Source: Erwinia pyri
Lineage (GTDB): Bacteria > Pseudomonadota > Gammaproteobacteria > Enterobacterales > Enterobacteriaceae
Direction of reading: 5' to 3'
DNA length: 64,000 nt
Assembly: GCF_030758455.1 (NCBI RefSeq)
Contig: NZ_CP132353.1
Location: forward strand, 62,001 to 126,000
The number at the start of each line of letters is the position of its first letter. Position 1 is the stretch's first letter. Made by a program: the position numbers and the translations under genes. The notes beneath the pieces are model-generated. The model worked only from the letters and a program-made list of their open reading frames with translations. It ran no database searches and was not told the origin of the DNA. Below are positions 28,966-43,591 of the stretch, piece after piece.

Positions 28966-29895
28966 TTACCAGCCTGTGTCCCCTAACATTTTCTGAATAT
29001 TAAGTACGGCCTGATTATTTTCATTGAGTCGGATAGCGGCGTAGACATCAATATTTAACTGCTGCGACTCCTCATCAGTTAACGCACGGTAGCATAACCC
29101 TTCCTGATTAAAGGTACATTTTGACTGCGGCATCAGAGCAAAGCCCTTACCTCTGGCGATATGCGTCAGCATAACGAGGGAATCATCAGGCTCTTTGACT
29201 TTTTTAAGCGTGACGTTGAGCCTGCTGAAATAGTCTTCGCACTTATCATAAAATGAAGGGTTTGCGCTTCTGGCAAACCAGAAAAGCGGTAAATCACTCA
29301 CTTCCTGTAGGGAAACCTTCTCGTTGAGACTGGCCGGATGCAGGGCCGGCATAGCCATCAGCAGGGGTTCACGGCAGACCCAGCGGTATTGCACAACATC
29401 TTCATGACCCGTGCCTTTCTCTCCCGTCAGGACAAGGTCAAGCGTGTTTTTAGCCAGGCACTGCAGCAGCTGGGCAGAGGTCAGGTTGGGCGTTTCCACG
29501 TCATCTTCAGCATTGAGTTTGGTCAGCTGCTTATTTAATGGCTCTACAAATTCAAAGTTCAGCGTGCGGGTAAGGCCGATGCGCAGACGCCCTTCGGTTG
29601 CCAGCGAGTCCGCTTTTAATCCATAGAGTTCCGCCAGAATGTTCTCTGCTCTTACCACAAGGGCGCGCCCTGCTTCCGTCAGGCTCACATCGTGCGTACT
29701 GCGGCTGAACAGCTGTTCTCCCAGCACGGCTTCCAGACATTTGACCTGGCGAGTTAGCGGCGGCTGGGTCATGCTGAGCCGCTCAGCCGCCCGGCGAAAG
29801 TTAAGTTCATGGGCCACAGCCAGAAAGCACTGAAGTTGCTTCACGCTGGGAAGATTGCTGCTGATAAGGTGCGCTGCTGTAGCCATAGAGTCCAT
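28966..29895 (-). CDS. LysR-type regulator divergent from the AfsA operon
   Basis: A LysR protein of about 310 residues. The N-terminal winged helix is clear (VKQLQCFLAVAHELNFRRAAERL, then TQPPLTRQVKCLE), followed by a LysR substrate domain. The start is uncertain: ATG 29895 is chosen, with ATG 29886 and TTG 29907 as alternatives. It reads away from the eight-gene operon that starts at 30076, with a TAAT-N11-ATTA site between them, so it is probably that operon's regulator. It is convergent with malM. Confidence 0.88.
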   Translation of the reverse strand: MDSMATAAHLISSNLPSVKQLQCFLAVAHELNFRRAAERLSMTQPPLTRQVKCLEAVLGEQLFSRSTHDVSLTEAGRALVVRAENILAELYGLKADSLATEGRLRIGLTRTLNFEFVEPLNKQLTKLNAEDDVETPNLTSAQLLQCLAKNTLDLVLTGEKGTGHEDVVQYRWVCREPLLMAMPALHPASLNEKVSLQEVSDLPLFWFARSANPSFYDKCEDYFSRLNVTLKKVKEPDDSLVMLTHIARGKGFALMPQSKCTFNQEGLCYRALTDEESQQLNIDVYAAIRLNENNQAVLNIQKMLGDTGW

Positions 29896-29980
29896 CCCGC
29901 CATTCAAAGGCGCATTTTAGCCTTTTTTATCTGTGCAGATAAATCACCAATATCACTATCAGAAAAACACCCATTCACAG

Positions 29981-29999
29981 TAATTCAAAAATTGTATTA
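29981..29999. promoter_or_regulatory. LysR-type box TAAT-N11-ATTA
   Basis: TAAT (29981-29984) and ATTA (29996-29999) are separated by exactly 11 bases, the classic T-N11-A LysR site with extended symmetry. It sits in the AT-rich divergent gap, 77 bases before the first operon gene. Binding by the LysR protein at 28966-29895 is inferred. Confidence 0.5.
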
Positions 30000-30075
30000 C
30001 ACATTTAATAATTCCATCTTCTCACCATATTGCTAAATTCCTCCCGAAATTAAGCACACATCTCAGGAGAGAAAA

Positions 30076-30687
30076 ATGTCATCAAACTATGTTCTGGTAT
30101 CGCGCTTCCCGCTTAAAAATAAGTTTTCCACTGAAGATTTCTCAGCATTAAAAAACAGTGAAAACACACGTTATTATTTTTGTGAAGAGCAGGGGTTTAA
30201 TGAACTGCTTGAACTGCGGTCGTTTAAAGATATTAAAGAAATCTCATGGGCAGAAGAGGAAATGGCGTCAATGTTCCATCGTTTCTCTGAAGTTATTGCC
30301 GCCGATATCCGTAGAGAACTTCTTAAGTTTGTAGAATCACCCATTGACAACGAAAAAAATCTGCCTGAAACCGCTTATATTCAGTTAAGACATGTTGAGG
30401 TTCCGTCTCACAATTATCAAAAATACCGTCAATGGCGCGATGAGACCATTTTCAATGTTGTGAGGGAAAATAAAGATAAAATTAAAAGCTTCGAAGCGTT
30501 CCATTCTCTTATCAGCGGCGTTCCGGGCGTGATGTTTATCTCTTCTTTCGATGGAAATAAAGAAGAATACAAAGAGGCCTTTACCAATGCACGGTATCAG
30601 GAAATTATTAAACAGGCCGGGGATAATTTTATTACTGGGGGTAATGAAGGTCTTTATACCCGCATCTATCGTGCTTGTTGTTGCTGA
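30076..30687 (+). CDS. Unknown protein, probable double dimeric alpha/beta-barrel (ABM/EthD-like)
   Basis: A 203-residue cytoplasmic protein with AGGAGAG before its ATG. The C-terminal half reads like a ferredoxin-like dimeric barrel of the antibiotic-biosynthesis-monooxygenase type: AYIQLRHVEV (strand), YRQWRDETIFNVV (helix), a segment ending GVPGVMFISSFDG (strands), then a helix EYKEAFTNARYQEII. The N-terminal half seems to repeat the pattern (YVLVSRFPL, later helix SWAEEEMASMFHRF). It ends with three cysteines in a row (ACCC), which is odd. Such folds often act on small hydrophobic metabolites or bind heme. It is the first gene of the AfsA operon, and its codon use is AT-rich compared with the mal block. 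Confidence 0.55.
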   Translation: MSSNYVLVSRFPLKNKFSTEDFSALKNSENTRYYFCEEQGFNELLELRSFKDIKEISWAEEEMASMFHRFSEVIAADIRRELLKFVESPIDNEKNLPETAYIQLRHVEVPSHNYQKYRQWRDETIFNVVRENKDKIKSFEAFHSLISGVPGVMFISSFDGNKEEYKEAFTNARYQEIIKQAGDNFITGGNEGLYTRIYRACCC

Positions 30688-30697
30688 GGAAAATTAA

Positions 30698-31474
30698 ATG
30701 AACTGTAAGAAACTGGTTGTTGTCGGCGATAAATTCAATGAATTCGCTAACGGGAAAGATGTTTTGACTATTTCTCAGCTTGAGTTATTGACGCAGATTC
30801 CTGCTAATATTATCGATAAAGAACATGAAATTATTATCGGCCAAGGCGTCCGTAAAGATTTTGCCGGGAAAGTGATTTCAAATCATGCAAGAAATGCGAT
30901 TCATGGTAACAAGCTCAAAATGTATTCGCTGGAAAAAATGGTCAATGATAAAAAAAATGTGCATTGCCATAAGAGACTTGAGCAAAACGTCCTTATAGGC
31001 TCAGCGGAACAAACTGACCATAACAGCAACCTTTATGCCATGCCCCTGTTGATTGATGAGCGCTGTGAACTCATGTCAGACCATCAGACCGGTCAGCATA
31101 TTCAGGGCATGTTATTGGTAGAGGCAAGTCGTCAGGCCTTTATTGCCATTACTGAAGAGTTTATTTATAAACAGGACTCCGGACGTTATTACGTCATCAA
31201 CAGTATGGCGATTAACTTTTCCAGCTTTCTCTTTCCCTTACCGGCCCTCGTCCATTTTGAGTTCCTTGAACAGGATATCAACAATCACCGGGGACGTTTT
31301 AAGGCGCAGGTCCGTGTTACTCAGCACCAGACGCTTTGTGCAAGCATGGATGTAGAGTTCACCGTCTACCCTTCAGGATTGATCTCCGAAAAGGAAAAGT
31401 CACTGGCTGAAGCGGCCATGCAGGCGGCAGTGGTGGAACAGCAGACACCGGCACAGGAAATGATCCATGCCTGA
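30698..31474 (+). CDS. AfsA-type (A-factor biosynthesis) hotdog-domain protein
   Basis: A 258-residue protein whose central part is an A-factor biosynthesis hotdog domain: HCHKRLEQNVLI near 90-101 and the signature SDHQTGQHIQGMLLVEASRQAF near 127-148. AfsA-family enzymes such as AfsA and MmfL condense a beta-ketoacyl thioester with dihydroxyacetone phosphate to make the precursor of gamma-butyrolactone or furan signals. Streptomyces AfsA is about 300 residues with two hotdog repeats; here only one clear signature is seen, with a divergent N-terminal part. It overlaps the next gene by 8 bases. A phosphatase and a thiolase in the same operon fit such a pathway. Confidence 0.82.
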   Translation: MNCKKLVVVGDKFNEFANGKDVLTISQLELLTQIPANIIDKEHEIIIGQGVRKDFAGKVISNHARNAIHGNKLKMYSLEKMVNDKKNVHCHKRLEQNVLIGSAEQTDHNSNLYAMPLLIDERCELMSDHQTGQHIQGMLLVEASRQAFIAITEEFIYKQDSGRYYVINSMAINFSSFLFPLPALVHFEFLEQDINNHRGRFKAQVRVTQHQTLCASMDVEFTVYPSGLISEKEKSLAEAAMQAAVVEQQTPAQEMIHA

Positions 31475-32300
31475 AATCAGTAGCCAGAAATACCGTTTGG
31501 CTGCTACCACGCAGGGGCCGCTTTACCCCCCTGCGGAGGTAATGGACGACAAAGGTAACTTCGTGGTGGTGGGGATGGTCCCCGGGGATAACGGGCTGGC
31601 GTGGCGCAAAGTGATTGTTTCGGCAGAGAGTCCGCTTCCTGAGTTCGGTACCACAGCGCCTTACAAAATAGTCCGCGATATTGAAGAGATGTCAGAGGAT
31701 GAATTGAAGGCAACACTTCTGTACACGCTTCCTCTGCCTGTCCCTGCAAATAATTACGGCATGGTGTTTGCCCCGGAGCAGCGACCGCAGGCAAACAGTG
31801 AAACCCGGCCAAGTCTGCCGTTGCATGAAGGATACATTGCTGATTACCGCAGCAGTGATGGCAAACGTCAGATCCCTCCGGTGACGCTGGCAGCCTGGAT
31901 ACAGGCTGAGGGAGAGCTGGAGATAAGGCTTTCGGAAGATCAAAAGCGCGCGCGATTTACGTTTACCTTTCGCAAGCTTGTTCCGGATAGCGTCTATACG
32001 GTGATGAGTCTTCGAGAGAATGATTTAGCGGTTGAAGATCCCAGCCGACCAGGCCCGCTGGGGATCCCCAACCTGTTTATTACCGATAGTGAAGGTAACG
32101 CAGACTACTGGGCGGAACTGCCCGATCCGTTTCCGGCACATGAACGGCAGGGAAACCGGATTATCAATGTCGTGGTCCTTTATATGAGCACCCGTCAAAG
32201 CTACGGCGGCGCTATTGGACTCTATGGCCTAGGTGGCGATATCCATGCCCATTTAAAACTTAAATGCCGTTCTTTTGATGAATTGATTACTTTTGGGTAA
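31467..32300 (+). CDS. Unknown protein in the AfsA operon
   Basis: A 277-residue soluble protein that I do not recognise. It has no signal peptide or membrane segment and no obvious nucleotide motif. Its composition is rich in beta-strand-forming residues and prolines (LPLPVPANNYG, PGPLGIPNLFI), and the C-terminal third contains GNADYWAELPDPFPA and a glycine-rich GGAIGLYGLGGDIHAHLKL with histidines at about 260-264. It resembles a beta-sandwich. The start overlaps the AfsA-like stop by 8 bases, so it is translated with it and probably works in the same step or complex. Confidence 0.5.
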   Translation: MPEISSQKYRLAATTQGPLYPPAEVMDDKGNFVVVGMVPGDNGLAWRKVIVSAESPLPEFGTTAPYKIVRDIEEMSEDELKATLLYTLPLPVPANNYGMVFAPEQRPQANSETRPSLPLHEGYIADYRSSDGKRQIPPVTLAAWIQAEGELEIRLSEDQKRARFTFTFRKLVPDSVYTVMSLRENDLAVEDPSRPGPLGIPNLFITDSEGNADYWAELPDPFPAHERQGNRIINVVVLYMSTRQSYGGAIGLYGLGGDIHAHLKLKCRSFDELITFG

Positions 32301-32309
32301 GGAGATTAT

Positions 32310-32534
32310 ATGCCCTTTGTTCACGTTACGACCTGGCCTGCTAAAAGTGAAAGCGAAATTATAAAATTGCAGGAAGATATTACTTTTGCTGTGCATAAAA
32401 ATACCGGTGCACCGCTGGATAAAATTTCAGTTGTGATCGTTGAAATTGAGCCTTCGCGCTGGGCAGATGCCGGCGTGCCCGGAAATAATAAGGACTTCCC
32501 GACTAAAAGTCGCAGAAAAAATTATGAGGAGTGA
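32310..32534 (+). CDS. 4-oxalocrotonate tautomerase family protein
   Basis: A 74-residue protein beginning MPFVHV, so removal of Met leaves the N-terminal proline that is the catalytic base of this family. The beta-alpha-beta layout (strand 2-8, helix 13-31, strand 38-46 with VSVVIVEIEP-like text) is as expected. The arginine at position 11 of classical 4-OT is not present, so the activity may differ from muconate tautomerisation. Tautomerases isomerise enols, useful when an AfsA product is rearranged to a lactone or furan. It follows the unknown gene by 9 bases. Confidence 0.8.
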   Translation: MPFVHVTTWPAKSESEIIKLQEDITFAVHKNTGAPLDKISVVIVEIEPSRWADAGVPGNNKDFPTKSRRKNYEE

Positions 32535-32537
32535 ATT

Positions 32538-33188
32538 TTGAAAAATTCAGCCGCTTTTTTTGATGTGGATGAGACAATCATAAATATAAAAAGCATGTTT
32601 GATTTTTTTGCCTTCTGGTGTCGGGAAAGAAAAGACCCTGACAAGCTTGACGTTTATATGATGCATTTTCGGAGTGAAGTGAAAAATGGCACCCCCCGGG
32701 AAAAAATTAACAGAGATTATTATCGGCAGTTTTCAGGTGTTCGCTATCGTGAGTTAGAAGAGGCTGGAGAAAGGTGGTTCAGTGATAAGTTGAAATCAGG
32801 TGTATTTATAGAAAGTGCGGTTTCGGCTTTGAAAAAACACCAGGCCGGGAGTAGACGCGTTGTTTTCATTTCCGGATCTATGCTTCCTGTTCTTTCTCCT
32901 GTCGCGAAATATCTTGGTGTAAAAGATATTCTTTGCGCCCCGTTGAAATTAACGGCTGCGGGGATGCTGACTGGTGAAATAGATACGCCACAAACTATTG
33001 GTTTCGGGAAAAGGGAAGCGCTAATGACGTTTTGCAATGAAAAAGGCATCGCGCCTGCGGATTGTTATGCCTATGGCGACGATCTCTCGGATATTCCCAT
33101 GCTCGAAGCAACCGGTCACCCTATTTGTGTGGGGAGATCTACAAACCTTGCCAGTTATGCAACTACACATCGTTGGCCGATTATTTAA
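32538..33188 (+). CDS. HAD-IB family phosphatase (SerB-like)
   Basis: A 216-residue haloacid-dehalogenase phosphatase of subfamily IB. Motif I is FFDVDETI (nucleophile D9, acid D11), motif II VFISGSM with the serine near 114, a lysine in GFGKREAL as motif III, and motif IV YGDDLSDIPML near 178-188. Relatives dephosphorylate small phosphate esters. In methylenomycin-furan biosynthesis a HAD phosphatase (MmfP) removes the phosphate left from dihydroxyacetone phosphate after the AfsA-like MmfL step; this gene is the natural counterpart. Start TTG at 32538 follows GAGGAGTG. Confidence 0.85.
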   Translation: MKNSAAFFDVDETIINIKSMFDFFAFWCRERKDPDKLDVYMMHFRSEVKNGTPREKINRDYYRQFSGVRYRELEEAGERWFSDKLKSGVFIESAVSALKKHQAGSRRVVFISGSMLPVLSPVAKYLGVKDILCAPLKLTAAGMLTGEIDTPQTIGFGKREALMTFCNEKGIAPADCYAYGDDLSDIPMLEATGHPICVGRSTNLASYATTHRWPII

Positions 33189-33208
33189 ATCATTGTTGAG
33201 GTAAAAAC

Positions 33209-34429
33209 ATGACTTCAGAAAACATTCCGCAAAATATGACCCTGAGGTCATGGCTTGCCCTATTTATCCTGGCTCTTTCAACGTTTACTATCGTCACGAC
33301 TGAACTTGCCCCCGTTGGTCTGCTGACGCCAATTGCGAAAGGACTCAGCTCCTCTGAATCAGCGGTGGGCATGACGGTTTCACTTTACGCCTGGATTGGC
33401 GCACTGAGCGCGCTCTTTGCCTCTGTTTTCCTGGGCAACGTGGCTAAAAAACGCCTGCTGCTAACGCTTACGGTAGTGCTCTTTTTATCGAACGTGCTTG
33501 CCGCTACGGTAAGCACCTATACGGCGCTGCTGGCCGCGCGGGTAGTGGGTGCTCTTGCCCATGGGGCATTCTGGGCGATGATCGGTGCGACTGCCGTAGC
33601 CATGGTGCCCGCCAGATACATTGGTGCCGCAACCTCAATAGTATTTGGCGGCGTCTCGGCAGCCAGCGTGTTTGGGGTGCCGGTAGCAAACTATATTGGT
33701 CTTCACTTTGGCTGGCGACAGGCGTTCTGGCTTATGGCCGTGCTTAGTGTTGTTGCCTTTATCGGCATCACGTTACTCGTTCCCCAAATTACCAGCAAAA
33801 GCGCTATTGGGCTGGGGGCATTAAAAAGCGTACTGAAATCATCCACGCTATGGAAAATCTATTCAGCCACTTTACTGACGGTCACAGCACATTTTGCAGC
33901 ATTCACTTACATTGAACCCTGGCTGCATACGCAACATTCGCTGACCACCTCAATTATTCCGGTTGTTCTTTTCGTTTACGGCATCGCAGGTCTTGCCGGT
34001 AATCTCCTTACTGGCATGGTGATCGATAAATATCTCAAGGTAACGGTATCAGCCTCGGTCCTGCTTATTTGCATAGTCCTGGTCTCTCTGGGTTTATCTG
34101 GCCCTTCACTCTCAGGCTCTGCTATTTTTGCGGCAATGGTTCTCTGGGGTGTGGCGGTCTCGGGAATATTCGTGGGCTTCCAGACATGGGTTTTGCGGAT
34201 GGCTGAAGAGAAAACCTTCCCGGCTTCTGCGGTTTACGTCTCATTTTTCAATACTGCAATAGGAATTGGTGCGTCAGCCGGGGCCTGGATGGTATCGGCA
34301 TTTTCCGTCTCGCTTCTTTATATTGTAGCTGGCGCAGCGATTGGACTCTCCGTGCTGCTGGTTGCCGCTATTCCTGCCCGCGTCACGTCCACACAAACCA
34401 TTCTGGAGAAATCTTATGAGTCAAACTGA
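33209..34429 (+). CDS. MFS efflux transporter (DHA1 / SotB-like)
   Basis: A 406-residue protein with 12 predicted transmembrane helices, of the drug:H+ antiporter-1 group close to sugar-efflux SotB/YdeA and arabinose exporters. Typical text includes TTELAPVGLLTPIA in helix 1 and the ARVVGALAHGAFWAMIGA segment in helix 4. It sits inside the biosynthetic operon and overlaps the next gene by 14 bases, so it probably exports the small product or protects the producer. Confidence 0.88.
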   Translation: MTSENIPQNMTLRSWLALFILALSTFTIVTTELAPVGLLTPIAKGLSSSESAVGMTVSLYAWIGALSALFASVFLGNVAKKRLLLTLTVVLFLSNVLAATVSTYTALLAARVVGALAHGAFWAMIGATAVAMVPARYIGAATSIVFGGVSAASVFGVPVANYIGLHFGWRQAFWLMAVLSVVAFIGITLLVPQITSKSAIGLGALKSVLKSSTLWKIYSATLLTVTAHFAAFTYIEPWLHTQHSLTTSIIPVVLFVYGIAGLAGNLLTGMVIDKYLKVTVSASVLLICIVLVSLGLSGPSLSGSAIFAAMVLWGVAVSGIFVGFQTWVLRMAEEKTFPASAVYVSFFNTAIGIGASAGAWMVSAFSVSLLYIVAGAAIGLSVLLVAAIPARVTSTQTILEKSYESN

Positions 34430-34829
34430 TGATCTGACCCGTAATGGCAGAGAGATCATGGACCGCCTTGAGTCAGGACTTGCCGATAAAGTCACCGGGC
34501 GATTAAGCGAATTGGATCCCACTCTTCCGGCTTTGATTACCGATTATGCTTTTGGGGCTGTGGTAGGCCGTCCGGGGTTGGATCTTAAAACAAGAGAAAT
34601 GCTGACCGTGGCCTCGCTGGTGACGCTGGGTAATGCCATGCCCCAGCTCGAATTGCATATGAGGGCGGCGCTGAACACCGGCGTTACCCCGCAAGAGCTG
34701 CTGGAAGTCGTGATTCAAATGGCTGTTTATGCTGGTGTTCCGGCCTGTATGAATGGGTTGACGGCGTATCGAGCCGCTATGGCTGCAACCGGACAGACCT
34801 TACCCGGACTTAAAAAGGAAAACCCATGA
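34416..34829 (+). CDS. Carboxymuconolactone decarboxylase family protein
   Basis: A 137-residue all-helical protein of the CMD/AhpD superfamily. The text DLKTREMLTVASLVTLGNAMPQLELHMRAALNTGVTPQELLEVVIQMAVYAGVPA (read across 57-112) is typical of the gamma-carboxymuconolactone decarboxylase branch; there is no CxxC, so it is not an AhpD-type peroxidase partner. These enzymes decarboxylate or isomerise lactones. In this operon it may act on a butenolide or lactone. Start ATG 34416 lies inside the MFS gene with GGAGAAA upstream, and it overlaps the thiolase start (ATGA). Confidence 0.85.
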   Translation: MSQTDDLTRNGREIMDRLESGLADKVTGRLSELDPTLPALITDYAFGAVVGRPGLDLKTREMLTVASLVTLGNAMPQLELHMRAALNTGVTPQELLEVVIQMAVYAGVPACMNGLTAYRAAMAATGQTLPGLKKENP

Positions 34830-36001
34830 ATGAAGTTGTGATTGTTTCTGCAAAGCGCACGGCAACCGGGGCCTTCCTGGGCGCACTGGCCGATCGTTCC
34901 GCAGCAGAGCTTGGAAGTCGTGTTATTCGTGCGCTGCTTGCAGACTCTGGCGTGGCGGCCAGTGACATTTCTCAGGTCATTATGGGGCAGGTTTTGACCG
35001 CGGGCTGCGGGCAGAATCCCGCACGCCAGTCAGCGCTGAACGCCGGATTACCTGTTAACACGCAGTGCCTGACGGTGAATAAGGTGTGTGGTTCCGGCCT
35101 CAAGTCAGTGCATCTGGGCATGCAGGCGCTACAGACTGGTGAAGCAGAGTTTGTGATTGCGGGTGGACAGGAAAGCATGTCCAACGCGCCACATCTGCTG
35201 ATGTCTTCGCGCACAGGGAAACGCATCGGTGACAATAATATGAAAGACAGCCTGATCTCTGACGGACTCTGGGATGTCTTCAATGATTATCATATGGGTA
35301 TTACCGCAGAAAACGTGGCAACCCGATTCAATATCAGCCGCGAAATGCAGGATGAATACGCTCTTCTGTCCCATATCAAAGCGCTTGATGCACAAACTCA
35401 GGGTATTTTTGAGAGTGAAATCGTTCCTGTAGAATGGCTGACCCCGAAAGGGGAGCCGCGGAGAGTGGACAAGGATGAAGGCCCACGCCAGTCCAGCATC
35501 GAAAAACTGATGCAGCTGAAACCGGTCTTTAAAAAGGGCGGCACGGTCACGGCAGGTAATGCTTCCTCTCTTAATGATGGCGCTGCCGCAGTCCTGCTCT
35601 GTACCCGAGACACGGCAGTGCTACGCGGGTTACCGATCCTGGCTTCTCTGGGCGCGTTTGCTAACTCTGGAATCGAGCCGGCATTGATGGGAGCTGCGCC
35701 GGTACAGGCGATCGCCGACTGTCTCTCCCGTTCGGGCTGGAAACCTGAACAGGTTGAACAACTTGAATCTAATGAGGCATTTGCCGCGCAGGCGCTGGCA
35801 GTGATTGCCGGGTCAGGTATCCCCTCTGAACGCATCAATCCGTATGGCGGCGCGATTGCACTTGGCCATGCAATTGGCGCCTCAGGATGCAGGATACTGG
35901 TAACGCTGGTACATGGACTGATTCGTAATAATCAAAAGCGCGGCGTGGCGGCGTTGTGCGTTGGCGGCGGGGAAGGTGTGGCGTTGAGCGTCAGTCGTTA
36001 A
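34826..36001 (+). CDS. Acetyl-CoA C-acetyltransferase (biosynthetic thiolase)
   Basis: A 391-residue thiolase, the usual length. The acyl-accepting cysteine is in NKVCGSGLKS (near 88), NEAFAAQAL near 315 and the histidine in GGAIALGHAIGASG near 348 are in place, and the second cysteine is in CVGGGEGVAL near 378. It joins two acetyl-CoA to acetoacetyl-CoA or extends a short acyl-CoA, which would give the beta-ketoacyl thioester that an AfsA-type enzyme uses. It is the last gene of the operon and has higher GC than the first genes. Confidence 0.93.
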   Translation: MNEVVIVSAKRTATGAFLGALADRSAAELGSRVIRALLADSGVAASDISQVIMGQVLTAGCGQNPARQSALNAGLPVNTQCLTVNKVCGSGLKSVHLGMQALQTGEAEFVIAGGQESMSNAPHLLMSSRTGKRIGDNNMKDSLISDGLWDVFNDYHMGITAENVATRFNISREMQDEYALLSHIKALDAQTQGIFESEIVPVEWLTPKGEPRRVDKDEGPRQSSIEKLMQLKPVFKKGGTVTAGNASSLNDGAAAVLLCTRDTAVLRGLPILASLGAFANSGIEPALMGAAPVQAIADCLSRSGWKPEQVEQLESNEAFAAQALAVIAGSGIPSERINPYGGAIALGHAIGASGCRILVTLVHGLIRNNQKRGVAALCVGGGEGVALSVSR

Positions 36002-36005
36002 AACA

Positions 36006-36038
36006 GAAAACGCCCGATGAGCTTCATCGGGCGTTTTC
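36006..36038. terminator. Strong bidirectional terminator
   Basis: A perfect 15-bp stem (GAAAACGCCCGATGA paired with its complement, 3-base loop) with A-rich left and T-rich right arms. It ends the AfsA operon and the convergent aldo/keto reductase gene. Confidence 0.9.
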
Positions 36039-36085
36039 TTACTGAAAGTTTTCAGCCTTTAGCCGGTCTGGCCAGAAGGCCATTA

Positions 36086-37084
36086 TCAGGCATTCACCCC
36101 TTTCATCCCCTCCTCAGAGTAACGTCCGCCTTTTATCTCCACGCGCTGATGAATGCCGTTCAGTAACGCAACGTCTGCTTTATCCAGCACGATATCAGCG
36201 GCAGCGGCATTTTCAGCCAGATAATGGCTGTGCTTAGTGCCAGGGATAGGGACCAGCTTGTCATACTGCGCCAGCAGCCAGGCCAGCGCAATCTGCCCGG
36301 CAGTGGCGCTGTATTTCTCCGCCAGCGGCCGGATAACCTCAAGCAGCTGAGCGTTATGATCCAGGCTGGCCTGCGCAAAGCGCTCATTGTTTTTGCGGAA
36401 ATCACCCTCTGCAAAATCGCTGTTCTTAAGGTATTTACCGGTCAGGAAGCCTCTGCCGAGCGGCGAGTAAGGAACCAGTCCGATATCCAGCTCTTTCAAA
36501 GCTGGAAGGATTTCCTCTTCGATATCGCGGGTCCATAACGAATATTCTGTCTGTAGCGCACTCAGCGGATGCACGGCATGCGCCCGGCGTAGTGTGGATG
36601 CAGAGACCTCGCAAAGCCCGATATGGTTTATCTTCCCCTCTTGCACGAGCTGGCTCAGGCACGCCATGCTCTCTTCGATGGGAGTCGCCTGATTTACCCT
36701 GTGCAGGTAAAATAGATCGATTCGCTCCACGCCAAGCCGTTTAAGGGAGTCGTTACAGCAGCGGGTAATGTAGTCGGGCTGATTATTGATGGTGCGGGCA
36801 TAGGCTTTGTCAGGCGAGCGGTCGATGCCGCACTTGGTGGCAATTTTAAACTTTTCCCGTGTCGCCTTATCCAGACCGGCCAGAAAGTGGCCAATCAGCC
36901 GCTCGTTATGGCCGCGCCCATAGAGGTCCGCCGTATCGATAAAGGTGATATCCAGATCGATAAGTTTGTGCAGGAGTTGCAGGGAGTTCTGGTCATCTGT
37001 TTCGCCATAAAATTCGCTGAGCCCCATGGCGCCATAGCCAACATCACTCACGGTCAGATCCTGAGAAAGATTTCGGGTTTTCAT
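36086..37084 (-). CDS. Aldo/keto reductase
   Basis: A 332-residue NADPH-dependent reductase of the aldo/keto reductase superfamily (AKR13/YajO-like group). The catalytic tetrad is visible: D and Y in DTADLYGRGHNE (about 51-62), K in KIATKCG (near 84) and H in FYLHRVN (near 123). The cofactor-binding text LVPIPGTKHSHYLAENAAA is near 280. ATG 37084 follows AGGAGA; the open frame further upstream is not coding. Downstream of the GlxA-type regulator and isochorismatase genes on the same strand. Confidence 0.9.
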   Translation of the reverse strand: MKTRNLSQDLTVSDVGYGAMGLSEFYGETDDQNSLQLLHKLIDLDITFIDTADLYGRGHNERLIGHFLAGLDKATREKFKIATKCGIDRSPDKAYARTINNQPDYITRCCNDSLKRLGVERIDLFYLHRVNQATPIEESMACLSQLVQEGKINHIGLCEVSASTLRRAHAVHPLSALQTEYSLWTRDIEEEILPALKELDIGLVPYSPLGRGFLTGKYLKNSDFAEGDFRKNNERFAQASLDHNAQLLEVIRPLAEKYSATAGQIALAWLLAQYDKLVPIPGTKHSHYLAENAAAADIVLDKADVALLNGIHQRVEIKGGRYSEEGMKGVNA

Positions 37085-37181
37085 CGTGTCTCCTTTTGTT
37101 GAGTCCCCCGATTGTTCCACTCCGCTGACCGTGACTGAATTCCCATTTTCGTGATGCCAAAAAGGTATCACCCCACTGAAA

Positions 37182-38102
37182 TTACGCCTGCCAGCGCTGC
37201 AACGCGCGGCGAAGCTGGCGTGAAGAGGAGAAACCGGCGGAAAGGGCGGCTTTCTCAGCGCCTTCCCCCTGCTGTAAACGCTGCTGCGCAACCGCTATCC
37301 GCAGCTGCTCGTGATAATCCCGCACGCTGATCCCCAGATGCTGCCTGAACAGGCGCGTCAGATGGCGCGGGCTGACATGCACCCGCCCGGCTATTTCCTC
37401 CAGTTGCCACTCCTGCTCGGGATGCACTACCAGCAGGTCCTGCGTGCGATGGATAGCGGGATGCATATGGTTGCGGTAGCGCAGCCACGGCGAAAGCTGC
37501 GGATCGTCTCCCGAGCGGCGGAAGTAGATCACCATTTCCCGCGCCACGTTCAGCGCCGTTTGCGAGCCGCAGAGCTGGTGGATAAGGTGCAGGGAGAGGT
37601 CGATGCCTGCGGTGATCCCGGCGCTGGTCCAGATGCCGCGATCTTCCACAAAGATGCGGTTTTCCTTAACGATAGCGGCAGGATCGATCTTTTTCAGCCG
37701 CTCCGTCACTTCATGGTGGCTGGTGCACTGCACGCCGCTCAGCAGACCCGCTTTAGCCGCAAGAATGGCCCCTGAACAGATGCAGATCAGCGTGATGCGC
37801 TGCGCATGGATATCCGGCTGCTGCCGCATCAGCCAGTGACGCGCCGCGATGCCCTGCGGCGTGTCAAAGCAGGTAACCGAGTCATGCACGCCGGGCACCA
37901 CCAGCAGACTGCCTGCGGGAAGCCTGTCGGGCAGCGGCTCGATGCGGCTGATGGTCATATCGGTGGAGGTGGTGATGCTCTCCTCCGGGCCGAAATAGCG
38001 CAGCGCAAAGGCGCCGCCTGCCAGCTTCAGCGTCTCTGCCGGGCCGGTCACATCCAGCGAGACAACGCCGGGCACCAGCAAAAACCACACCTGGACACTC
38101 AT
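37182..38102 (-). CDS. GlxA-type AraC family regulator (DJ-1/PfpI sensor domain)
   Basis: A 306-residue regulator with an N-terminal DJ-1/PfpI domain (VWFLLVPGVVSLDVTGPAE start; nucleophile-elbow-like ICICSGAILAAKAGLL near 107-122, cysteine present) and two AraC helix-turn-helix motifs at the C-terminus (LEEIAGRVHVSPRHLTRLFRQHLG, then the second helix ALSAGFSSSRQLRRALQ). Such proteins usually activate nearby metabolic genes. Its start is one base after the isochorismatase stop, so it is co-transcribed with it and probably controls it. Confidence 0.9.
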   Translation of the reverse strand: MSVQVWFLLVPGVVSLDVTGPAETLKLAGGAFALRYFGPEESITTSTDMTISRIEPLPDRLPAGSLLVVPGVHDSVTCFDTPQGIAARHWLMRQQPDIHAQRITLICICSGAILAAKAGLLSGVQCTSHHEVTERLKKIDPAAIVKENRIFVEDRGIWTSAGITAGIDLSLHLIHQLCGSQTALNVAREMVIYFRRSGDDPQLSPWLRYRNHMHPAIHRTQDLLVVHPEQEWQLEEIAGRVHVSPRHLTRLFRQHLGISVRDYHEQLRIAVAQQRLQQGEGAEKAALSAGFSSSRQLRRALQRWQA

Positions 38103-38103
38103 A

Positions 38104-38646
38104 TTATGGCAGCTCCTGCAGGCACTCCTCCACGCTCTGAACGGAGGCGAAACGGTTGATCAGCACCGCTTCAGTACGGTGACGGATGTCAGCGATACTT
38201 AACGTGATGCGGTTATGGCAAATCGGGAAGGTTAGCGTCGCTTCGGTCACAAACGTCACCTTATAGCCAAGATCTGACGCGACGCGGGCGGTGGTTTCAC
38301 AGCACTGTTCGGTGCGCAGGCCGCAGATAATCAGATGATCCACCTGCTGTTCCTGTAACCACGCCTGTAGCCCGGATTCGGTCAGGGCATTGTGAACGCG
38401 CTTATGCACCGTCTTCACCGCTTTATGGTTCAGAAAAGGCAGGCGCACCACCAGACCGGAGTCCCGCGAGAACGGACCCTCTTCCTCCTCATGGAACACA
38501 TCCACAATCGGGATACCGCGCACGTGGCAGCCGCCGATCAGCGCGGAGAGGCTGCGTTCAAAGGCGGGCATCTCGACGGTTTCCTGATAGCCACGATGAT
38601 AGAACGACTGCTGGGCGTCAATCACTAAAAGCACGCTGTTGGACAT
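38104..38646 (-). CDS. Isochorismatase family cysteine hydrolase
   Basis: A 180-residue hydrolase of the isochorismatase/nicotinamidase superfamily. The catalytic triad can be placed: Asp in LLVIDAQQSF (D10), Lys in the VHKRVHNAL region (near 90) and Cys in GLRTEQCCETTARVA (near 125). Substrate could be a nicotinamide-, ureido- or N-carbamoyl-type amide. ATG 38646 follows AGGAGT. It is the first gene of a three-gene run with the GlxA-type regulator and the aldo/keto reductase. Confidence 0.87.
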   Translation of the reverse strand: MSNSVLLVIDAQQSFYHRGYQETVEMPAFERSLSALIGGCHVRGIPIVDVFHEEEEGPFSRDSGLVVRLPFLNHKAVKTVHKRVHNALTESGLQAWLQEQQVDHLIICGLRTEQCCETTARVASDLGYKVTFVTEATLTFPICHNRITLSIADIRHRTEAVLINRFASVQSVEECLQELP

Positions 38647-39038
38647 TTCTGGACTCCTGACTGAGTGGGTGTAACCCAATGATGGCGGGAAACAGCAGGG
38701 CAAAGAAGGCCAAAAACGGACATCATGGTGTCGGGGCGGGACGAGTGTGTGCATAGTGCTGACGCCTCTGAGGCATAAGGGCAACCAGCCAGATTACATC
38801 CATGATCATCTTCTTGCAGCCACAGATAAACTCCATACAGGGATACTTACATCCTGGCTACACAGCCTACTTGCGACGCGCTGTTGCAGCACGCGAACAA
38901 TACCCCCACATTTGTTATCTCTATTGTTCCTGTGCTGAATATCCTGCAGGATAGTGTGTAAAGGAATTGACCGGCGGTTTACTGACATTCCGCCTATAGC
39001 TCCCACCAGCAATTGTCAGGGAACAGGAAATCCGACCC
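38647..39038. other. Divergent intergenic region, no gene seen
   Basis: This 392-base gap separates the divergent isochorismatase and YrdC-like genes and must hold both promoters. Short open frames here have no ribosome sites or family resemblance. TTGTTCCTG...CTGAAT near 38920-38945 is not a convincing promoter. Confidence 0.4.
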
Positions 39039-41744: not shown

Positions 41745-43043
41745 ATGGGACAAACCATTACACAAAAAATTCTCGCACGCGCCTGTGGACGTGAAAGTGT
41801 GACGCCGGGTGAAGTGGTTTGGGCAAAAGTGGATATTCTGATGTCACACGATCCCTGCACTCCCGGCGTTGCCAGCGTATTTAAAAAAGAGTTTGGTGCC
41901 GATGCCCGCGTATGGGACCCACGCCGTTTTATTATGATCCCGGATCATTTTGTCTATTCTGCCGACCCGCAGGCCAATCAGAATATTCGCGTGATGCGTG
42001 AGTTCGCCGCCGAGCAGAATATTCACTACTTCTATGATGTTGGCACGCCGGAATATAAAGGCGTCTGCCATATTGGCCTGGCCGAAGGCGGCCATGCACG
42101 TCCGGGCGAAGTATTACTCGGCACGGACTCACATACTGTCACCTCCGGCGCGTTCGGCGCGTTCGCCATTGGTCTGGGGATCACGGATGCCGCTTATGCG
42201 CTCGGTACCGGTGAAATTCCGCTGAAAGTGCCTTCCAGCATCCGGGTGAACTTCACCGGTGTTCGTCCTGCCAGCCTGTTGGCTAAAGATATGATCCTGG
42301 CGCTGCTGGCCGAGTTAACGGTGGACGGTGCCACCTATGAAACTATTGAGTTTGGCGGTAACGCCACTGATGAACTCTCTGTCGAAGAGCGGATGACACT
42401 CTGCAATATGGTGGTCGAGTGTGGCGCCAAGAATGGAATCATGGTGCCGAATCAGGCCACGCTGGACTATCTGGCAAAGCGTACGGATGTGCCTTTTACC
42501 GTGGTCAGGCCGGATGAAGATGCTGTCTACAGCCGGGTAGTGAACATTGACGTCACCAGGATGCAGCCGAGAATTGCCCGTCCGCATTCGCCTGATAATG
42601 TCGTCGCCATCGAGCGGGTGACCAACGTGGCGATTTCTCAGGCTTATATTGGCTCCTGCACGGGCGGCAAGCTGGAAGATTTTATTGCGGCGGCAAGGGT
42701 GATCAAAGGCAATAAGGTAAAGATTCCGACCTATGCCGTCCCGGCCACCAAAGAGGTGTTTCACAATATTATCACCACGCAAATTGACGGCGTTTCGGTC
42801 TACCAAATCCTTAGCGATGCCGGGGTCAAGTTGTCAGCAGAAGCGGGCTGTGCCGCCTGCTGCGGCGGACCGGCGGACACCTTTGGCCGCATTAACGATC
42901 CGATTTCGGTGATTTCCACCACAAACCGTAATTTTATCGGTCGTATGGGGCACAAACGGGCCAGCATCTATCTGGGCTCACCTTATTCCGTGGCTGCCGC
43001 CGCCGTAAATGGCTATATCACTCACCCGGAGATTTACTTATGA
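41745..43043 (+). CDS. LeuC-like hydratase large subunit (aconitase family)
   Basis: A 432-residue protein of the 3-isopropylmalate / (R)-2-methylmalate / dimethylmalate dehydratase large-subunit group. The [4Fe-4S] cysteines are in YIGSCTGG (near 302) and GCAACCGG (near 366-369). DSHTVTSGAFGAFAIGLG near 127-144 is the other family hallmark. It is shorter than classical LeuC (about 466), like the archaeal and fermentative hydratases. It overlaps the small-subunit gene by 4 bases. No leuA or leuB is nearby, so the substrate is probably not isopropylmalate. Confidence 0.88.
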   Translation: MGQTITQKILARACGRESVTPGEVVWAKVDILMSHDPCTPGVASVFKKEFGADARVWDPRRFIMIPDHFVYSADPQANQNIRVMREFAAEQNIHYFYDVGTPEYKGVCHIGLAEGGHARPGEVLLGTDSHTVTSGAFGAFAIGLGITDAAYALGTGEIPLKVPSSIRVNFTGVRPASLLAKDMILALLAELTVDGATYETIEFGGNATDELSVEERMTLCNMVVECGAKNGIMVPNQATLDYLAKRTDVPFTVVRPDEDAVYSRVVNIDVTRMQPRIARPHSPDNVVAIERVTNVAISQAYIGSCTGGKLEDFIAAARVIKGNKVKIPTYAVPATKEVFHNIITTQIDGVSVYQILSDAGVKLSAEAGCAACCGGPADTFGRINDPISVISTTNRNFIGRMGHKRASIYLGSPYSVAAAAVNGYITHPEIYL

Positions 43044-43591
43044 GTGCATCAACCACAGGCACCATCAGCGGCGTTGTTTATGTGTTGCAGGATAACATCG
43101 ATACCGATCAGATCCTGACCGCCGAATACCTTAAGGTCAATCCTTCTACATCGGAAGGTTATGCACAATTGGCGACGCTGGCGATGTGCGGATTGCCCGA
43201 GGATGCCTTACCCTTCATTGACGAGCAGAGTGGGAAATCGAAGTATCCAATTATTGTTGCCGGTAAGAATTTCGGCTGTGGTTCCTCGCGCGAGCACGCC
43301 GTCGTGGCATTAGGCGCTTCCGGTGTAAAAGCGGTACTGGCCCAGTCCTATGCACGTATCTTTTTCCGCAACTGCGTGTCCACCGGACAGGTATTGCCGG
43401 TCGCCACCGCAGAACGTTTATGCGATGAATTGCAAACAGGCGATGAAATCGCGATTGATATTGAACAGCAAACCATCACCGTGTTGAAGAATGACCGCAG
43501 AGTCGCCAGCGAACCGGTGGGAGAACTGGCCAATATTGTCGCTGCAGGCGGACTATTTTCCTATGCTCGTGCAACCGGCCGTATTAAATAA
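43040..43591 (+). CDS. LeuD-like hydratase small subunit (aconitase swivel domain)
   Basis: A 183-residue swivel-domain subunit. NIDTDQILTAEYLK near 18-31 and GKNFGCGSSREHAVVAL near 77-93, with the substrate-binding S-S-R-E-H, are the expected motifs, then YARIFFRNCVSTG near 108-120. It pairs with the large subunit encoded just upstream (ATGA overlap) to form an isomerising hydro-lyase. It resembles the DmdB/HacB-sized small subunits. A hairpin terminator follows. Confidence 0.88.
   Translation: MSASTTGTISGVVYVLQDNIDTDQILTAEYLKVNPSTSEGYAQLATLAMCGLPEDALPFIDEQSGKSKYPIIVAGKNFGCGSSREHAVVALGASGVKAVLAQSYARIFFRNCVSTGQVLPVATAERLCDELQTGDEIAIDIEQQTITVLKNDRRVASEPVGELANIVAAGGLFSYARATGRIK

Follow-up and report, generated by a model that had tools for sequence, protein, structure and literature searches.

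The chemistry of AfsA-type enzymes is known mostly from hormone biosynthesis in Streptomyces, where the regulator is a TetR-type receptor. The classical systems (A-factor, SCB and the virginiae butanolides, MmfL-MmfP, SabA-SabP-SabD and the PBS domain of gladiostatin) have in common the PF03756 hotdog with an H..E and EAxRQ motif and a HAD-type phosphatase as a neighbour, with a reductase, an exporter and a regulator nearby. Passages of PMC7756379 describe that the AfsA-like domain of gladiostatin joins a 3-ketooctanoyl thioester with dihydroxyacetone phosphate (DHAP) in vitro, that DHAP also releases a 3-ketobutyryl group from its acyl carrier protein (ACP), and that a phosphatase and a ketoreductase are known partners for the SAB butenolides. 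We analysed a stretch of 64,000 nucleotides from the plant-associated enterobacterium Erwinia pyri (NZ_CP132353.1, positions 62,001 to 126,000; hereafter the window, whose own numbering is used). The genome has a size of 4.76 Mb, and the window adjoins malK-lamB-malM (genes named by eye). At 28966-37084, the window carries a LysR gene, a run of eight genes including an AfsA-type gene, and a convergent aldo/keto reductase (AKR) gene, with the open reading frames (ORFs) as first described.

This locus is real, conserved and functionally coherent, and it is of an AfsA-type biosynthetic kind and not categorically new. Judging from sequence and from analogy with described systems, it probably encodes a pathway that spreads horizontally and yields a small metabolite for export; in this pathway, a thiolase product would be joined with DHAP by AfsA and dephosphorylated by a HAD phosphatase, and the resulting butenolide would be tailored and exported. 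Most likely, its product is a small molecule of the butenolide type, made from common metabolites of sugar and acetate and then exported.

The gene set from LysR to AKR

An earlier note on this DNA had described eight genes behind a divergent LysR gene, and the ORF list and profile matches agree with that description. The LysR-type regulator gene (28966-29907, minus strand; Pfam HTH_1 73.8 bits, LysR_substrate 67.2 bits) is listed with a TTG start, and a shorter form with an ATG start is possible. The plus strand carries the genes of an ABM/EthD-like protein (30076-30687), AfsA (30698-31474), a protein of an unannotated conserved family (31467-32300; UNK), a 4-oxalocrotonate tautomerase-like protein (4-OT; 32310-32534), a HAD-IB phosphatase (32538-33188), a putative MFS exporter (33209-34429), a carboxymuconolactone decarboxylase of the PcaC-like family (CMD; 34416-34829) and a biosynthetic-type acetoacetyl-CoA thiolase (34826-36001). 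The spacings from ABM to thiolase are 10, -8, 9, 3, 20, -14 and -4 bp. The AKR gene (36086-37084, minus strand) begins 84 bp past the thiolase gene and is convergent with the operon. Pfam and NCBIfam profiles confirm the identities of LysR, AfsA, the tautomerase, HAD, MFS, CMD and the thiolase.

The earlier note had held that no reductase is present and that a furan or an unsaturated butenolide would hence be more likely. An AKR of at least 73% identity adjoins the operon in all seven UNK-positive Erwinia genomes, whereas an AKR of 72% was found in only two of the 30 UNK-negative ones, the others showing at most 56% or no match over the limit (7/7 versus 2/30, hypergeometric 3.5e-6). Both exceptions (G015 and G033; loci L108 and L109) keep LysR and AKR side by side with the middle genes gone, and an MFS remnant is also present in G015; these pairs are operon-deletion scars. 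The gene set from LysR to AKR is one heritable unit. With its Pfam score (259 bits), the linkage in Erwinia, the scars and a published gene list (PMC12708576), the AKR belongs to this unit; thus, the statement on the reductase falls, and the argument for a furan fails with its premise. The reductase partner of a gamma-butyrolactone (GBL), butenolide or furan cluster is represented here by the AKR, whose action on a butenolide is putative.

Control by LysR had also been proposed, and the gap between LysR and the operon does carry a conserved element. We aligned 14 LysR/ABM gaps, from Erwinia to Vibrio, that were chosen by hand where LysR faces ABM (L012, L018, L021 and L026 are among those left out). 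The best-conserved stretch ahead of the start codon was 29980-30014 (no strand assigned), in which 20 of 35 positions are identical in 13 or all 14 of the gaps. It consists of an inverted repeat, GTRATWC-N7-RTATTAC, an A/T spacer and a TTAAYAATTC-type box. The strict inverted repeat occurs in nine of the 14 gaps; those of L006, L007, L102, L013 and L016, a Vibrio locus, depart from it. This stretch fits a candidate LysR site with an overlapping promoter element, through which LysR would govern the operon. No TetR-type (ArpA-like) receptor gene was found among the 12 scanned genes of 28966-38784.

AfsA, its partners and the proposed pathway

The assignment of an AfsA-type hotdog to 30698-31474 was borne out by a profile search that could have denied it. 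The protein scored 50.1 bits against PF03756, above the curated cut-off of 24 bits (51.4 bits in the genome-wide search), and none of the 14 control genomes had a match. In a PDB sequence search, hotdog dehydratases took the first three places (best E 1.2e-4), and spectrin matches that look like chance appeared from E 0.0027 on. In an alignment that took in 26 of 129 hits, D128, H129, H134, E142, R145 and Q146 were invariant, and the DH...H...E..RQ motif is also seen in the C-terminal half of each of two AfsA proteins with two domains; these residues presumably have the catalytic role known from FabZ-like enzymes. Only one AfsA-domain stretch (residues 91-222) is present, unlike the two tandem domains of classical AfsA, and the N-terminal part is a conserved domain of ca. 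90 residues ahead of the hotdog. The protein is thus a single-hotdog AfsA and a putative phosphorylated-butenolide synthase.

To compare neighbourhoods, we surveyed the loci of 80 of the 103 confirmed relatives of the single-domain AfsA. A gene was counted as present when tblastn matched it at any place in the retrieved stretch; some loci are truncated by contig ends (in L061, just after AfsA), and the 80 loci are related to each other, so that Fisher values computed from them overstate their independence. HAD-IB was present in 76 of the 80 loci, namely 37 of the 38 UNK-positive and 39 of the 42 UNK-negative ones. In the UNK-positive loci, ABM was found 38 times, CMD 30, 4-OT 29, AKR 26, MFS 23, LysR 20 and thiolase 19 times; the corresponding counts in the UNK-negative loci were 2, 1, 0, 7, 1, 3 and 0. 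Of the UNK-negative loci, L061 and L023 have ABM, and the AfsA match is itself short in L023. HAD-IB is thus the steady partner of AfsA, and ABM is tied to UNK (38/38 versus 2/42). The HAD-IB gene of the window, which had been suggested as the phosphatase partner, has a TTG start and intact DVDET, SGS and GDDLSD motifs; its role as partner is upheld by these motifs and the survey.

The thiolase, with intact Cys88, His348 and Cys378 motifs, scored 418 bits against TIGR01930 (cut-off 240.55); most of the models that it matches best, and most of its PDB relatives, are acetyl-CoA acetyltransferases. Thiolases of this family form acetoacetyl-CoA. By its family models and PDB relatives, the protein may well be the supplier of acetoacetyl-CoA that it had been taken for. 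Since the gene lies in the operon, acetoacetyl-CoA is the simplest substrate. AfsA would condense the acetoacetyl-CoA formed by the thiolase with DHAP to 2-acetyl-3-(phosphooxymethyl)butenolide, as AfsA-family chemistry suggests, and HAD-IB would strip the phosphate to leave a C7 acyl-hydroxymethyl-butenolide. The ABM-like protein, 4-OT and AKR may then oxidise, isomerise and reduce this intermediate to a hydroxy/methyl- or hydroxyethyl-butenolide-type product, a furan not being required. The MFS protein would export the product, and CMD and UNK might act in late steps or in self-protection.

Two other AfsA sets give the strongest independent hints that the input would be a 3-ketoacyl thioester. 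On a plasmid of Streptomyces sp. YIM 121038 (L085), AfsA, HAD-IB, an ABM-like protein (32%, annotated as hypothetical), UNK and AKR occur with KASIII, ACP and TauD, and no thiolase is among the 19 listed features of its incomplete gene table; KASIII and ACP would here replace the thiolase. At L128:3935-9317 (G013), a two-domain AfsA gene is followed by a beta-ketoacyl synthase gene, a 229-residue ORF that looks HAD-like by eye but matches no Pfam family, an AKR gene and one resembling MFS; this AfsA set, too, has a thioester source of its own. From set to set, the 3-ketoacyl source varies, and what persists is AfsA, a HAD-type gene and AKR.

The same logic would hold if AfsA took a different 3-ketoacyl thioester or another phosphorylated ketose, in which case the product would not be a C7 acetyl-derived butenolide. 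A thiolase match in only half of the UNK-positive loci (19/38) speaks for such a partner, as does the AvrD-like synthase of methylenomycin, for which a pentulose and acetoacetyl-ACP are proposed in passages of PMC12593393. However, the HAD phosphatase is near-universal (76/80), the operon contains a thiolase, and the relatives of this thiolase are mostly acetyl-CoA acetyltransferases. We therefore regard another partner as unlikely, and retain acetoacetyl-CoA and DHAP as the proposed substrates.

Accessory proteins, distribution and related loci

The ABM-like gene product is a fused two-domain dimeric alpha-beta barrel by fold and a putative cofactor-independent oxygenase; H106, H143, W120 and R121 are invariant. 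Its best Pfam score was 15.1 bits (cut-off 22), no NCBIfam model matched, and a profile search against PDB gave three matches at chance level only. UNK matched no Pfam or NCBIfam family over the cut-off, and its profile gave no PDB match at E<=5. Its sequence is strongly conserved, with 55% mean column identity and 54 invariant positions among 61 aligned sequences, including those of Streptomyces, Kitasatospora and Nocardia (this alignment, A2, took in 61 of 415 hits; another, A3, 28 of 37 clustered ORFs). A structure model predicts a Cu,Zn superoxide dismutase (SOD)-like beta-sandwich with long inserts and without the conserved metal histidines. H260 is near-invariant (60/61), H120 was found in 49/61 and H262 in 31/61. 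A Cu,Zn SOD function of UNK was rejected because the metal ligands are absent, the metal-ligand histidines not being conserved. The idea of an intradiol dioxygenase, which came from the TTQGPLYPP start, was also dropped in view of the modelled SOD-like sandwich and the single near-invariant histidine. Distant relatives of UNK with signal-peptide-like starts (by eye) and no Pfam match were seen at L114:9266-10471, in a stretch without AfsA, and at L115:8873-9808, ca. 5 kb from an AfsA-HAD-AKR set.

The remaining proteins bring up a different reading, in which the operon is catabolic or detoxifying, AfsA is an odd hotdog thioesterase or dehydratase, and 4-OT, CMD, thiolase and AKR degrade a lactone or ring compound. 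CMD (Pfam 71.6 bits, scored on a longer ORF; PDB 2af7) is best matched by PcaC-type models, 4-OT (PF01361, 27.2 bits; N-terminal Pro present) and the thiolase recall beta-ketoadipate genes, and the thiolase resembles pcaF (328 bits; cut-off 597). One genome, G156, keeps 4-OT, UNK, CMD, MFS and AKR in this order beside a convergent MarR gene (L111:9081-13527), and an AfsA-domain search of that genome found nothing. Against degradation, several of the best NCBIfam models of the MFS protein (PRK03545 'sugar transporter', Cmx/CmrA efflux and NepI, all under the cut-off) are efflux pumps, the AfsA-HAD pair is kept amid quite different neighbours, and the KASIII and ACP of L085 are anabolic. A catabolic role thus appears very unlikely. 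We read the G156 group, from this one genome, as a separable part for processing or self-protection.

Several observations nevertheless weigh against the biosynthesis proposed above. The protein has a single hotdog domain instead of two, and it is not a member of the ScbA/BarX model NF041195 (20.2 bits; cut-off 200). Since thiolase was found in 19 of the 38 UNK-positive and none of the 42 UNK-negative loci, many versions need another thioester source. Two further thiolases over the family cut-off are encoded elsewhere in the genome, so that the operon copy is not the sole candidate source. The G156 set, which lacks AfsA, means that 4-OT, UNK, CMD, MFS and AKR need not serve synthesis. Finally, the AKR gene is convergent and is not co-transcribed with the operon.

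The distribution of UNK is patchy. UNK was found in seven of 37 genomes of the genus, eight of 394 genomes sampled from the order (two of them weak) and two of 398 genomes sampled from the phylum (the other one weak), with the own genome included each time; PF03756 was found in three of the 398, own included and one under the cut-off, and 398 genomes are a thin sample of the phylum. The operon had no megablast match in the E. coli genomes or plasmids searched. The gene combination is found again in Enterobacterales, Vibrionaceae, Orbaceae, Halomonadaceae and Alphaproteobacteria, and in part on the Streptomyces plasmid, the one plasmid through which UNK neighbourhoods in Actinomycetota were covered. 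The earlier description of such sets as known from Streptomyces is therefore too narrow. In relatives from Alphaproteobacteria and Halomonas, MFS-CMD-AKR is divergent from ABM-AfsA-UNK-4OT-HAD. L112 has the one-strand order AfsA-HAD-AKR-ABM-UNK-MarR-MFS-CMD-4OT, and L113 the order ABM-AfsA-UNK-4OT-HAD-thiolase-MFS-SDR-NHL-AKR (SDR and NHL named via L021 relatives).

Over ten proteins, the set of the window shares 81-82% with those of Buttiauxella, Cedecea, Enterobacter and Lelliottia and 81-83% with two Erwinia sets (L103 and L104), but only 66-69% with four other Erwinia sets (L102 and L105-L107; nine proteins for L106). For the core protein MalF, the values are 80-81% with five of the six Erwinia genomes compared (G032 gave no match above the limit) and 75-76% with the five non-Erwinia genomes compared. 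In those five Erwinia genomes, malF and the operon lie on different contigs (four) or at least 0.7 Mb apart (G020), and the fetched operon loci L102-L107 contain no mal gene beyond a 30% malK-like match. Since the order of MalF similarity opposes that of the operon proteins, with this one core protein as the yardstick, horizontal transfer of the operon is the simplest reading. Elsewhere in the window, a LeuC/LeuD-like aconitase-family gene pair was seen at 41745-43591 (named by eye).

The UNK-negative AfsA-HAD pairs adjoin a sensor kinase and a PAS-GGDEF-EAL protein, flavin monooxygenases (by eye) or DUF2165; the latter was confirmed in L049 and clusters with proteins of L057, L075, L083 and L084, not in L076. 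In Gilvimarinus/Marinimicrobium-type loci (L053, L054, L056, L062, L063, L065-L068, L072 and L079), AfsA-HAD is flanked by genes for a CHASE5 histidine kinase and a response regulator-PAS-GGDEF-EAL protein, both profile-scanned in L067 only, and by one for a periplasmic binding-like protein, labelled by eye. Such loci might form a signalling unit that leads from a butenolide to c-di-GMP. Outside the window, the genome of E. pyri carries another AfsA, a two-domain protein encoded at L004:4071-8480 (G000:C1 ~3,260,070-3,264,479) in a one-strand run with HAD, cytochrome P450 and an MFS exporter. That run sits among type III secretion genes, with a FlhB/HrpN/YscU/SpaS family protein ca. 1.3 kb upstream and others named by eye.

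The sensor kinase and GGDEF/EAL neighbours, together with the LysR gene and its conserved element, could mean that the product of the Erwinia operon serves specifically as a signal between cells and that the adjacent LysR protein senses it, in the manner of A-factor and its receptor. A related AfsA, HAD-IB and DUF2165 set of Chromobacterium subtsugae rises strongly from the quorum sensing (QS)-negative to the QS-positive sampling points (rows of 8.93 and 9.18, apparently log2) and is coexpressed with the cdeAB-oprM efflux genes, according to passages of PMC12114271. However, the LysR of the window was matched in only 20 of the 38 UNK-positive loci, a different LysR group occurring in others, the patchy distribution (7/37 Erwinia genomes) does not favour a signal, and the separable 4OT-UNK-CMD-MFS-AKR set is more like processing or self-protection. 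We consider a dedicated signal somewhat unlikely, and the more general reading of an exported metabolite, which may serve as a signal or as an antibiotic, is preferred.

As a tentative extension, 4OT-UNK-CMD-MFS-AKR may be a separable self-protection or processing module, kept also in the non-producer G156, and the single-hotdog AfsA enzymes of Enterobacterales, Vibrio, Orbaceae, Alphaproteobacteria and at least one Streptomyces might make short-chain (C7, acetoacetate-derived) butenolides of a class that has spread horizontally and gone unrecognised, with UNK as a new enzyme or binding-protein family. We hold this combined proposal to be possible and less likely to be right than wrong.

Comparison with known systems

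The locus would be a compact AfsA pathway in fast-growing enterics that comes with a thioester source, a phosphatase, a reductase, an exporter and a regulator of its own. Since the gene set is self-contained, its product is open to a search by heterologous expression in E. coli. The locus also gives a genetic handle on the strongly conserved UNK family and on a subfamily of AfsA that has a single hotdog and, in Proteobacteria, is linked to HAD-IB.

At least one genome paper has already printed the set, as a list of genes only, and an earlier mention may exist in a survey of salinipostin-type GBL clusters across 12 phyla, which is cited in PMC12114271. The list (PMC12708576) concerns the mcr-8.6 genomic island of Klebsiella michiganensis F731, whose genes 35-42, at the end of the 61.6-kb island, are AKR, acetyl-CoA C-acetyltransferase, CMD, MFS, HAD-IB, tautomerase, AfsA and LysR, an order that matches the Erwinia unit. 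The comparison is by gene names only, and hypothetical proteins are drawn in gray and unnumbered, so that UNK and ABM are not confirmed there. The figure legend and passages of PMC12708576 give no function for the set; the list is an independent sign of the LysR-to-AKR unit on a mobile island and is silent on the chemistry.

On the megaplasmid of Ruegeria pomeroyi DSS-3 (SPO_RS21595-SPO_RS21555), an ABM-like protein (annotated as hypothetical), AfsA, UNK, tautomerase and HAD-IB occur in the same order as in Erwinia, with MFS-CMD-AKR divergent. Unlike the Erwinia locus, it shows no thiolase among 20 listed features, and its LysR has no match to that of the window. The C. subtsugae set has HAD-IB directly after AfsA (PMC12114271). 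Matches to AfsA and HAD stand in the same order in L076, from another strain of that species, in which ABM, UNK, 4-OT, CMD and thiolase had no match. The methylenomycin (mmy/mmf) cluster resembles the Erwinia locus in that its butenolide is proposed to be formed with an acetoacetyl thioester as an input, and differs in the AvrD-like MmyD and in its later enzymes, as far as passages of PMC12593393 describe them. Compared with the classical AfsA systems, the Erwinia locus has one hotdog and a conserved N-terminal domain instead of two hotdogs, and adds ABM-like, 4-OT, CMD and UNK proteins, a thiolase as the putative thioester source and a LysR regulator.

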